27,677 nt of DNA from the IMG/VR virus record IMGVR_UViG_3300030328_004248, positions 1 to 27,677 of that record; one strand, given 5' to 3'. How positions within the stretch are numbered: the first letter of the stretch is position 1; the number at the start of each line of letters is the position of its first letter. Position numbers and translations under genes: made by a program. This stretch comes from a virus. The notes under the pieces were generated by a model. The model searched no databases and was not told the origin of the DNA. It was given only the letters and a program-made list of their open reading frames with translations. This document shows positions 2,804-7,743 of the stretch, in pieces.

Positions 2804-3250
2804 TTAGGGTTGCATAATAAAGTGAACAATACCTAGTTTATACTCATACGGTAGGAGTAAAAAATAATGAATGGGACTTACAACTTCAAAACTCGCAATG
2901 AGTACAAGAGGTTCGATTTAAACTCGATTAGTGAACGAGACCCTTGCCTTGCGTTTGCCCAGAAATATGGAAGATCGACTACCGTTTCGAGTCCGTTCAT
3001 AGCATGTCGGTCTTCCACATAAAATAGGACTTACACATAGGGATCATGCATGAACCCACCTGATGCCCGATAAATTAGGATGTCAGTGCTTTTACTCCAA
3101 CATCATGTGACTGCTTCATAGTCAGTCTAGTCAGAAACCTAATCCCCCAGAAGAGGTCTTACACCAATTGAAAAGTGATTCTGCATCAACTGGTTGCCTC
3201 CCTTGTCATGTACCTATTATAGTATATCTAGGGTGAAAGTCAACCAAATG
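2804..3250 (-). ncRNA. Candidate structured RNA or long 5' leader, 447 bases with no convincing gene
   Basis: No convincing ORF is present. GC is about 43% by hand count over 2881-3180, against roughly 30-35% in neighbouring genes. Complementary arms seen directly: 2854-2862 with 3090-3098 (perfect 9 bp, enclosing about 240 bases); 2968-2979 with 3006-3017 (12 positions, one non-Watson-Crick); 3072-3079 with 3138-3145 (8 positions); 3163-3171 with 3186-3194 (9 positions, reinforced by GAGG/CCTC at 3153-3156 and 3197-3200); and a near-palindrome at 3040-3057. A strong promoter on the minus strand sits at the right end. In the two arms nearest that promoter the imperfect positions become G-U pairs only in a minus-strand transcript. 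The 2968-3017 arm instead favours plus. I do not recognise it as tRNA, tmRNA, RNase P RNA, 6S or SRP RNA. Confidence 0.55.
3216..3243 (-). promoter_or_regulatory. Sigma70-type promoter for the structured region and KTSC-like gene
   Basis: On the minus strand TTGACT (3238-3243) is followed after 16 bases by TATAAT (3216-3221). This is close to consensus at both boxes. It starts eight bases beyond the cobS-like stop, with predicted transcription starting near 3209 and running left through the structured region toward 2803. Confidence 0.7.
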
Positions 3251-4360
3251 TTACGATTCCGTAACAATATCAACTTCAGCATCCAACTTACTATAAAGTT
3301 GTAGGAATGACTGCTTAGTCTCCTCATCGAACCGATTCAAACACATTTGAACTGCTTTCAACTTATCACCAAAGATAGAATAAGCACGTATAATATGAGT
3401 AAGTCGTCTAGTTGAAATAACTTCATCAATACCTCCTTCATTGAATGTTTTTCGTACAATATTTGCCCATTCACATAGGTAAACTATGTAGTTTTCATGG
3501 TCTCCAGTCATAGGTATTTGTAAAGAATCGCATACTTTTCTTAGTATTTTATTCTCTACCTGTGGTGAAGGATAGTCTTGCTCAATAGTAATGGGGAATC
3601 TCTCAAGAAATGCCTCATTGAGTACATTTGTGCCAATAAACCTACCGTCATCACTGCCCTTACCTTTAGTATTAGCAGTTGCTATGATATTGAAACCATT
3701 AGCAGGTTTGATGTACTCACCTATCTTTTTGAGGAATACTCCCTTACCTTCTAGTATAGATTGTAAGCATAGTATTTTATTTGATGCTAGATCAACTTCA
3801 TCAAGTAGTAAGATTGCACCACGTTCTAATGCTTCAATAACTGGTCCATTATGCCATACAGTTTGACCATTGACAAGTCTAAATCCACCTATCAAATCAT
3901 CCTCATCAGTCTCAACTGTAATGTTGACTCTAATGAGTTCTCTGTTTGCTTGTGAACATGCTTGTTCTACTCCAAATGTTTTACCATTACCACTCATACC
4001 AGTAATGAATACAGGATAGAATAGTCTTGATGATACTACCTTCTTTAGATCATTGAATGAACCAAACTTTACAAATGTTTCATCCTTATCAGGTACTAGA
4101 TTCTGTACATCTACAGTGGTCTTAGCAATACCAACTGGACTACTACTTTCAAATGTTTGCTCTAACTGTTTCTTTGCTTCCTTTACAGTTATTTTCCAAT
4201 GACCACGTTTGGTCTTATACTGATTCAGGTACTTAGTAATTGTTTGATACCCAACTTCATGGGACTCACAATATGCCTTGACCATATCAGCGTCAAGATC
4301 AGTACCATACTGATCTTTGATATTATCTAAGTGAAACTTAGAATCAATAGTTCTTGGCAT
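3251..4360 (-). CDS. cobS: CobS-like / MoxR-type AAA+ ATPase
   Basis: A 369-residue protein. Walker A GMSGNGKT is at residues 121-128, Walker B LLLDEVD at 184-190, sensor-1 ATAN near N230 and a candidate arginine finger at R254 (AFLERFP). The N-terminal 110 residues are a separate helical region. In bacteria CobS is the ATPase of aerobic cobaltochelatase. In T4-like cyanophages a CobS-like gene is common, but B12 synthesis has not been shown for it, and MoxR-type ATPases more generally work with VWA proteins as remodelling pairs. The VWA partner is encoded in the same operon (5560-7743), supporting a two-protein machine. The ATG at 4360 has an AAAGGA ribosome site about 6 bases upstream. Confidence 0.85.
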   Translation of the reverse strand: MPRTIDSKFHLDNIKDQYGTDLDADMVKAYCESHEVGYQTITKYLNQYKTKRGHWKITVKEAKKQLEQTFESSSPVGIAKTTVDVQNLVPDKDETFVKFGSFNDLKKVVSSRLFYPVFITGMSGNGKTFGVEQACSQANRELIRVNITVETDEDDLIGGFRLVNGQTVWHNGPVIEALERGAILLLDEVDLASNKILCLQSILEGKGVFLKKIGEYIKPANGFNIIATANTKGKGSDDGRFIGTNVLNEAFLERFPITIEQDYPSPQVENKILRKVCDSLQIPMTGDHENYIVYLCEWANIVRKTFNEGGIDEVISTRRLTHIIRAYSIFGDKLKAVQMCLNRFDEETKQSFLQLYSKLDAEVDIVTES

Positions 4361-5311: not shown

Positions 5312-5563
5312 TCATTGATAGGGTTGATAAGGTGGTTCTACTTCATTGATCCTATATTGAAACTGTTTAGTATCAAAATATGATACTCCAGTTTTACCTT
5401 CTCTCTCATCTAATACTTCATTGATAAGTATTTTCAACTCCCTGACCATTTCAGGAGTATGTAACCTACGTGGTTCAATCATCATAGGTTTATGTGCTTG
5501 AATCTTCCACTCCTTGTTATCGGATGGAAGACTCATGCCTTGTGTATCAATTTTCATGTTCAT
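5312..5563 (-). CDS. Hypothetical protein directly after the cobT-like gene
   Basis: An 83-residue protein, unrecognised. It has a polar N-terminus, a Pro/Arg stretch MMIEPRRLHTPEMV, a helix VRELKILINEVLDEREGK and a Pro/Tyr/Gln tail (EVEPPYQPYQ) that looks disordered. The start overlaps the stop of the CobT-like gene by an ATGA (5560-5563), so the two are probably made together. It could be an accessory factor of the ATPase/VWA pair, but that is only context. Confidence 0.75.
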   Translation of the reverse strand: MNMKIDTQGMSLPSDNKEWKIQAHKPMMIEPRRLHTPEMVRELKILINEVLDEREGKTGVSYFDTKQFQYRINEVEPPYQPYQ

Positions 5564-7743
5564 GCTATTTGTTTGATGAATTGTTTTACTAAGAATTTAT
5601 TTGTTTTCTTATTTCTATTCATTCTCTTGAAAGATGACATAATCTTTCTTTTATCTGCACCTTGATCTACATCTAGTTCATCATCAGTATGCATAGATTT
5701 ACCTTGCATAGCGAACCACATATCAAATGATAAACTACTGAATGATAGTAGACCATTTTTCCTTAGTTGACCTTTTGCTTCATCAATAGTAGCAAAAGAC
5801 TTCCTAGCATACCAACTATAGAATCTATGAAGTCCACCCTTCTCAAGTAATCTAATGGCAATGAAATTACAGTTAGGTATATCACTCTTGACTGCTTCAA
5901 CCAACTTACATGTAAAGTCAGGTTCATTCATTGCACCTAAGAATGTTTTACCATTATGCCTAATAACAGTGTTATATGGATTGAATCCACAAGCACCCAT
6001 ATACTGCTCATTTGAAGTATATTTTGTTCTCATAGCATTATATGAGATATGGAAACCTTCTCCATCAGTCAATGCTATTACATGACATTTTTGCAACTTA
6101 GATCTCTTGATTAGTTGCTTAGTTAGTTGACCAACTGCTATGATTGCTTCATTCAATGGTGTACCTGATAGTGAAAACTTTCTATGGTATTGATACCTAT
6201 ATCCTTCAAATGCAGATACTTGTAACCATAAGTATGTCATCATTTCATCTAACTGTTTAGTCTTTGCAGTACTGGTTATTATGTTTACCATTCTGAATTG
6301 ACCTTCAATATGTAAATCACCTATCTTCATTTCTTTTACTAACCTCTCATCGTTTGTTACATCTTGGTATCCATTCTGTGTATCTCTATTATCAGTTCCT
6401 AATGCCCATGCATCATTACTAAATGCATATACTTCAAATGGTATGTTTACTTTCCTACAGAACCACACTAGATTGTATAGTTGTTTGATAGTATCCTTCA
6501 AATTATATTGCATTGAACCACTCCAGTCTAATAAGAATACTAGACCATGATTCTTGCCTTCAGGTATTGTAGTTACCTTTTTGAATATATCCTCATTGAA
6601 CATATAAGTATGCAACTTAGATGTATCAAGTACACCAGTTTTGGATACACCTTGCCTAGCATAAGAATCTGCTGATTTTCTCATTTCAAATTCTTTTACT
6701 AGATTGTTTACATCTTTAGATGCACTCTTTTTATATACTCTATATGCTGAGTTTGCTTGTTCTATAGTATCACCTGCCCATGAATATTGTTTTTCAGATG
6801 GAGCAATTAGCATTTCTTGATCAAAATGTTCTTTTAGTTCCTTATAAACAGTATCAAATGATATGACTACATTATCAAGATTCAACTCAGGTATTGAAAC
6901 ATAAGTAGTCTCTCTACCTTTATCATTACTATCCTTTAGTCTATCGCTATTGCGATCAAATGCCTCTTGAGTATCACTCTCATCCATATCATTCCAATTA
7001 CCTGCTTCATTACCTAATGATGTTTCATTCTCATCACCATATTCTATATCACCTTCCATTTCTCCATTGTCTCCTTCTCCATCATCTGACTTTTCAAAAC
7101 TAGGTGTATCTAAATCAGCATCATCACCTGACTGACCATTACCTTCTTGTTGTTGTTTCTGTTCTTGTAATTCTTTTTGCTTTCTCTCTTGTTGTGCTTT
7201 AGAATACAAATATATTCTATTAGCAAGATCTAATACATCTTCAAATGTTTCTGTCTTTGATGCTTGTGTAACAAATTCATTCTCTATATCATTGAATTCA
7301 ATGCATAGATAAGCACCGACCTTGAAGTATAGATTGATCTTATCAATTAGTTTCATATTATTTACATTGATTCCATCTAATTCAAAGAAGTCACTTGCAT
7401 TTAGTTCCTCATATCCTTTATAAAAATCTCTATTGAGACCTGCAAACTTATTCTTCATAAATCTCTCAATTCTTACATCCTCAATTACATTTACATAAGG
7501 ATGTGGTAGTGATTCATACTTACCTTCCTTCCACATTACACATGGTGTAAACAATGCATGACCTACCTCGTGAGCAACTAGCATGTCATACACATAGTTA
7601 CTTGATGTATTCCACATAGGTAGAGTTAGTACTCTTGTATCTGTATTGAATTGAGCAGTCTCTACCTGTTTATGCTCAACAATAAGGTTTTCAGTAGCAA
7701 GCAATCTTGCCAAGTTACCTTTTATCTCAATGTTTACTGGCAT
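5560..7743 (-). CDS. CobT-like protein: HExxH metalloprotease-like N-terminus plus VWA domain
   Basis: A 727-residue protein. Residues 57-66 read AHEVGHALFT, a zinc-metallopeptidase HExxH signature (H58, E59, H62), with a conserved-looking NVIEDVRIERF at 85-95 that may supply the third ligand. Residues 185-270 are a low-complexity Gln/Asp/Glu spacer. A VWA domain begins near 400 with the MIDAS motif DWSGS (D406, S408, S410). Acidic linker followed by VWA is the layout of the cobaltochelatase subunit CobT, and the cobS-like ATPase is in the same operon. The HExxH is the reason such phage genes are sometimes called peptidase. More likely a MoxR/VWA remodelling pair with protease activity than a cobalt chelatase; the substrate is unknown. 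The ribosome site is weak. Confidence 0.85.
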   Translation of the reverse strand: MPVNIEIKGNLARLLATENLIVEHKQVETAQFNTDTRVLTLPMWNTSSNYVYDMLVAHEVGHALFTPCVMWKEGKYESLPHPYVNVIEDVRIERFMKNKFAGLNRDFYKGYEELNASDFFELDGINVNNMKLIDKINLYFKVGAYLCIEFNDIENEFVTQASKTETFEDVLDLANRIYLYSKAQQERKQKELQEQKQQQEGNGQSGDDADLDTPSFEKSDDGEGDNGEMEGDIEYGDENETSLGNEAGNWNDMDESDTQEAFDRNSDRLKDSNDKGRETTYVSIPELNLDNVVISFDTVYKELKEHFDQEMLIAPSEKQYSWAGDTIEQANSAYRVYKKSASKDVNNLVKEFEMRKSADSYARQGVSKTGVLDTSKLHTYMFNEDIFKKVTTIPEGKNHGLVFLLDWSGSMQYNLKDTIKQLYNLVWFCRKVNIPFEVYAFSNDAWALGTDNRDTQNGYQDVTNDERLVKEMKIGDLHIEGQFRMVNIITSTAKTKQLDEMMTYLWLQVSAFEGYRYQYHRKFSLSGTPLNEAIIAVGQLTKQLIKRSKLQKCHVIALTDGEGFHISYNAMRTKYTSNEQYMGACGFNPYNTVIRHNGKTFLGAMNEPDFTCKLVEAVKSDIPNCNFIAIRLLEKGGLHRFYSWYARKSFATIDEAKGQLRKNGLLSFSSLSFDMWFAMQGKSMHTDDELDVDQGADKRKIMSSFKRMNRNKKTNKFLVKQFIKQIA

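Follow-up and report, generated by a model that had tools for sequence, protein, structure and literature searches.

A cyanophage RNA leader assembled from recurring, interchangeable modules

The gap between positions 2804 and 3250 of a 27,677-nucleotide (nt) stretch of viral DNA (positions 1 to 27,677 of the IMG/VR record IMGVR_UViG_3300030328_004248, hereafter the window) encodes a folded RNA leader built from at least four recurring and interchangeable blocks, and lies immediately upstream of a minus-strand gene for a 71-residue protein. The block defined in most detail, element A, belongs to a family supported by covariation, and it and its companions behave as separately evolving RNA modules that have been swapped and nested among the leaders of unrelated genes. 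With regard to mechanism, we tentatively favour, at rather less than even confidence, a role for these modules as cis-acting 5′ leader elements that would protect phage messenger RNA (mRNA) and present its translation start. An initial annotation, made from the sequence of the window alone, had singled out the gap as a structured non-coding region; the mosaic of recurring modules was not visible from there.

The description of the gap in that annotation as 447 nt without a convincing gene proved exact, this being the largest stretch of the 64.7-kilobase record devoid of an open reading frame (ORF) of at least 60 residues. A coding role was rejected, the only candidates being ORFs of 51 (plus strand) and 46 residues (minus strand), neither of which returned a PHROG match. 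The content of guanine plus cytosine was also elevated as claimed, at 0.41 overall and up to 0.44 in sliding windows inside the gap, compared with mostly 0.29–0.38 nearby. A blastn comparison of the gap gave matches in P-SSM7 and in the single-cell virus AG-345-L05 only, the piece common to them being the motif here termed element A, and a first pattern describing it recovered 58 IMG/VR stretches. To avoid circularity, all ten positions of helix P3 were left free in a second pattern, which recovered 112 IMG/VR stretches, 101 of them with all five P3 pairs formed. Among those 101, at least eight different helix sequences fill P3 (GACUG/CAGUC, GUCUG/CAGAC, CUCUG/CAGAG, CCUUG/CAAGG, CCACG/CGUGG, CCAUG/CAUGG, GACCG/CGGUC and CCCCG/CGGGG), while the other 11 stretches, with one to four of the five pairs and no P2, were chance hits. 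The only pattern match in the bacterial genomes of GTDB r220 was likewise a chance one without P3.

The 59 distinct copies of A provided strong evidence of covariation, the check that the initial annotation had proposed: 97.7% of cells pair as against 74.6% in shuffled controls, double changes number 151 where 29.5 were expected, and changes on both sides were recorded at 10 of the 12 pairs. Pairing fell to 32–44% in slid controls, and RNAalifold recovered both P2 and P3 when run without guidance. The CUA, ACU, GAAG and ACAUGA motifs were fixed by the search pattern, so that invariance at those positions is by construction. The covariance model R1 awarded the window copy, itself part of the training alignment, 63.6 bits. 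Outlying forms also exist: the A of P-SSM2 has diverged, reading ACAUUA and holding about 45 nt of inserted sequence in its P3 loop, and a copy on the plus strand of L172 (position 11445) has a similarly placed nested insert of about 60 nt.

It is this covariation, and not folding energy, that establishes the gap as structured beyond chance; minimum free energy was discarded as a proof, its z score being too weak on both the minus (-1.8) and the plus strand (-0.84). The same alignment identifies the strand, as its paired cells count 93 G-U in the sense RNA against five A-C, the form that the RNA of the opposite strand would need in order to pair as G-U; the RNA is thus that of the window minus strand, as had been read from imperfect positions in the arms at 3072–3145 and 3163–3194. 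Both arms are real, the former comprising P1 and P2 of A and the latter the hairpin B1. A third arm, at 2968–3017, also exists, as hairpin H, and recurs in three other contig stretches, but its earlier assignment to the plus strand found no support. By way of contrast, the perfect 9-base-pair arm thought to close some 240 bases (3098–3090 with 2862–2854) was rejected because it draws on bases of the covarying helix P2 and because, by our own estimate, a stretch of 447 nt should contain about 0.4 such arms by chance alone.

The failure of the initial annotation to match the region to any RNA family was borne out. None of the 4227 families of Rfam 15 reached its gathering threshold between positions 2500 and 3400, matches there at E values up to 10 were at chance level (2.2–9.3), and no Rfam family was found for the modules in relatives at various thresholds; ARAGORN reported neither transfer RNA (tRNA) nor transfer-messenger RNA in the window. 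The same Rfam scan did detect a glutamine riboswitch elsewhere in the record (RF01739, 36.8 bits; L224:12598-12644, minus strand, approximately 59497–59543 of the record), within a 373-nt gap upstream of a 47-residue ORF.

The genomic setting of A was surveyed in the 56 distinct copies with enough surrounding sequence. In 53 of these A lies upstream of a same-strand gene, and in 34 the start codon falls 54–73 nt beyond the A core. The genes that follow belong to 14 unrelated families, including gp32 (the single-stranded DNA-binding protein; PF08804), N6/N4 DNA methylase, DUF7294 and small lysine-rich proteins, a diversity that argues for a general role; in S-SSM4 (L072:1380-1505) A is followed by an unannotated basic ORF of 41 residues that precedes tRNA-Val. 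In most relatives for which a leader-closing helix was identified (GGGAAACAAA/UUUGUUUCUC or UGUUGAGAGGA/UCCUCUCAACA, for example), it starts 5–8 nt after the -10 hexamer, at about the +1 position predicted from the promoter, and the script employed found no such helix in gp32 and some other A contexts. The near-consensus promoter that the initial annotation had pointed into the region was confirmed in the window (Table 1); promoter-like sites overall were not in excess (17 found, 13.7 expected).

The leader of the window reads, in order, B1, A, B2, H and B3, with F nested inside the last. No exact relative of B1 was found in IMG/VR, so that it is classed by resemblance only and was rejected as a recurrent module. 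Further recurrent modules (D, E, G, M1 and K) are found in the leaders of relatives: in P-SSM2, for instance, the PSSM2_070 leader is A-B-D, and that of PSSM2_071 is C2-M1 followed by a G-like stretch. Exchange and nesting are evident throughout. About 35 marine contigs preserve the frame of B3, the inner arm of which has been swapped between copies; F stands alone at the start of the leader in L069 and L070; an F-type frame encloses H in L220, L221 and L222, whereas H is separate in the window; and A is nested within B2 in L070 and L076. B2 itself, whose flanking and inner helices covary, occurs in varied phage contigs, in several of which it lies beside or between tRNA genes (L166:2435-2479; L171:1887-1931, minus strand; L155:1632-1674; L165:641-683). 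The tRNA-Thr genes at L155:1684-1757 and L165:692-765 have the anticodon AGT, which is unusual for bacteria.

Turnover of this kind can be followed at a single gene. The 71-residue gene has a syntenic orthologue, 67% identical and also beside cobS, in AG-345-D19, where the leader consists of G, as against A-B2-H-B3/F in the window. Relatives of the gene were found in fifteen further contigs, of which L205 has a class-B block containing F and H in its leader, and others have short unrelated hairpins; a recurrent short leader hairpin, GCCCUAAAGA or a close variant, was observed in L208, L211, L212, L214, L215 and L216 about 60–110 nt before position 1498. No A was present in the 11 orthologue contigs tested, and the leader accordingly turns over faster than the gene. 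The gp32 leader carries A, manA (in P-HM2) or neither, depending on the phage.

Under the cis-acting explanation that we favour, the region would be the 5′ leader of the mRNA of the 71-residue gene, transcribed leftward from about 3209, and its modules would work in cis as they would on other phage mRNAs of this group of T4-like cyanophages and their relatives. Transcription would begin either with the closing helix of the folded block or a few nucleotides ahead of it. That block would be succeeded by a short, weakly structured spacer and then the start codon, and could shield the 5′ end of the mRNA against 5′-end-dependent decay by RNase E or RNase J of the host while leaving the translation start open; the conserved loops may fold compactly or be bound by a shared factor of host or phage origin. 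The gene-independent position of the modules, the helix at the start of the message, the exchange of modules and the weak spacer all fit a cis role in message stability and initiation of translation. According to works listed in a review (PMC3997798), 5′-terminal stem-loops stabilise bacterial mRNA. Host RNase E rises during cyanophage infection, and antisense RNA has been proposed to protect phage transcripts from it (PMC9692554). Of the three roles offered by the initial annotation (a phage regulatory RNA, a leader controlling a KTSC-like gene, or an RNA acting on host machinery), the leader fits best because modules in relatives sit just before start codons; the KTSC-like designation was unsupported, the protein having no Pfam match and belonging to PHROG 4357.

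Several observations weigh against this explanation. The loops of A are conserved more strongly than a plain steric block needs, and in the window A is internal, the first helix starting about 8 nt past the predicted +1. A occurs approximately once per genome and is missing from several cyanophages, and is therefore not indispensable. Module-free cyanophage promoters exhibited no clear excess of 5′-terminal helices (61, compared with a shuffled mean of 34.6 and range of 19–60), so that the idea of such helices as universal there was rejected. Several modules adjoin or separate tRNA genes, and L205 has a second promoter between the RNA and the gene.

The best specific rival is that a protein, of the phage or of the host, binds the modules and so controls translation in trans, A perhaps being an operator by which gp32 represses the mRNA that encodes it, in the manner of the T4 gene 32 pseudoknot. 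The strong conservation of the A loops would be expected on this basis, and in 14 contigs A lies in the gp32 leader and is followed by an A-rich stretch, judged by eye to be unstructured, and then a GAGG ribosome-binding site, a layout that would match that of the T4 operator (PMC3014915). We nevertheless consider it unlikely, given that A also precedes 13 other gene families and, in the window, another gene, that the A of P-SSM7 lies elsewhere than in the gp32 leader, and that gp32 of P-HM2 has manA instead. The T4 operator, a pseudoknot plus an A+U-rich region, appears to resemble the A-bearing gp32 leaders in its succession of structured element, unstructured stretch and ribosome-binding site, but A serves many genes and takes the form of a hairpin that is interrupted and has large, conserved loops; this comparison covers the nested helices P1–P3 of A, no pseudoknot search having been made.

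Were each module a ligand-sensing aptamer, leaders would combine several riboswitch sensors, as the compactness of the folds, their conserved loops and their place in 5′ leaders might indicate; the same virus does possess a glutamine riboswitch, and manA and wcaG have been proposed as regulators of phage metabolism (PMC2864571). The 14 unrelated downstream families share no common pathway, however, modules are swapped at the same gene, and no conserved expression platform was seen, so that this is rather improbable. Little better can be said of the idea that the region yields a free-standing regulatory RNA with targets in trans, be they RNAs of the host or phage or the machinery of the host: an RNA of some 400 nt with several domains and its own promoter would suit that role, as would the second promoter of L205 and the modules beside tRNA genes, but for 53 of the 56 A copies the gene ahead is on the same strand, usually a short and fixed distance away, and no terminator-like site was found on the window minus strand between the point where the structured RNA ends and the gene, the next being at 2544–2524, downstream of the latter. 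Least probable is that the modules are RNA processing sites, cleaved by an RNase or by themselves, at which long phage transcripts are cut into separate cistrons and tRNAs; B2 does have tRNA genes on either side in L171 and immediately precedes genes in varied phages, but many copies stand just after a promoter with nothing upstream to remove, and no ribozyme family matched the window at E values up to 10.

Leader RNAs as such are an established kind in cyanophages, CfrI, PhotoRC-II, wcaG, manA and the glutamine riboswitch being already known (PMC9964418); what is new is the combinatorial, nested use of modules. The closest parallel is manA (RF01745), a structured RNA of T4-like cyanophages found in putative 5′ untranslated regions of unrelated genes, which lies beside a tRNA gene in L025 and, in P-HM2, in the gp32 leader where other phages have A. 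It differs in sequence and structure and matches no module of the window; its covariance model, which does score in P-SSM2, P-SSM7, P-HM2 and others, found nothing at the gathering threshold in the window or the rest of the record. PhotoRC-II (RF01717) and wcaG (RF01761), also cyanophage leader RNAs that emerged from comparative genomics, gave no window match even at an E value of 10. Stabilising 5′-terminal stem-loops such as that of the ompA leader resemble the modules in that the message opens with a helix whatever the gene, a helix that begins near the predicted transcript end in most relatives for which a closing helix was identified and at about +8 in the window; here, by contrast, loops are conserved, folds are modular and nested, and we infer the stabilisation. 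Bacteria and phages also possess RNAs that are large and ornate, GOLLD and ROOL (PMC12286853); unlike them, the modules are short and reassorted in gene leaders in place of one large conserved architecture, and no Rfam match was obtained. A search of the literature, which left most subscription journals outside its reach, found no description of the window modules.

The coordinates of the relevant features are collected in Table 1. Beyond the gap lie cobS (3251–4360), a peptidase gene (5560–7743) and a DNA methylase gene, and blastn returned matches to the cobS of many Synechococcus and Prochlorococcus phages, which together place the gap among T4-like cyanophages. A hairpin, UGUUACGGAAUCGUAACA, at 3266–3249 on the minus strand overlaps the end of cobS immediately before the leader promoter, and in L217 and L219, too, similar hairpins (GUUACGGAGUCGUAAC) lie just ahead of the promoter.

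Table 1. Features in and around the gap, in window coordinates.
Feature	Position	Strand	Remarks
Promoter, sigma-70 type	3216..3243	-	TTGACT-N16-TATAAT; 11 of 12 consensus positions, best of region
Predicted transcription start	near 3209	-	From the above promoter
B1, class-B-like hairpin	3151..3202	-	Closing helix GGGAGG/CCUCUU, loop CAA / UGUAAGA; sequence and fold
Element A with closing helix P1	3072..3148	-	P1: GAUUAGG 3144-3138 / CCUAAUU 3079-3073
A core	3092..3138	-	P2 3136-3130/3101-3095; P3 3127-3123/3113-3109; covariation
A core loops	within 3092..3138	-	9-nt loop ACUAUGAAG; 3′ bulge ACAUGAU
Loop sequences of A			ACUNNGAAG and ACAUGA
B2 module	3026..3068	-	GGGCAUCAG-hairpin-UGUGUAAGUCC; frame in 19 IMG/VR contig stretches, helices covary
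H hairpin	2964..3021	-	GGAAGACCGACAUGCUAUG...CGAAACGGUAGUCGAUCUUCC; core recurs in L220, L221, L222
B3 frame	2873..2960	-	GGGCAAACGCAAGGC...GUUUUGAAGUUGUAAGUCCC; 3′ motif of the frame recurs in 37 IMG/VR stretches, almost all of them B3
F module, nested in B3	2906..2948	-	43 nt identical to L064 copy
Weakly structured U-rich spacer before start codon	2804..2872	-	Fold z -0.62 for 62 nt
Downstream gene, 71 residues	2588..2803	-	PHROG 4357 (unknown function)

It is plausible, although we would put it short of an even chance, that marine T4-like phages draw on a common stock of small RNA modules, which are inserted into the leaders of unrelated genes, nested there and exchanged between them. In such a combinatorial system, to which manA may belong as a member already named, selection would act on the presence of a suitable folded leader and not on one fixed regulator per gene. 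Element A is a covariation-supported RNA family of ocean viruses without an entry in Rfam 15, and it and its companion modules occur even in the long-studied phages P-SSM2 and P-SSM7, where the stretches concerned are unannotated. The control of gp32 in T4-like phages other than T4 and RB69, identified as needing study (PMC3014915), thereby becomes a testable question, and the leaders of phage mRNAs are suggested to evolve by the exchange of RNA modules.
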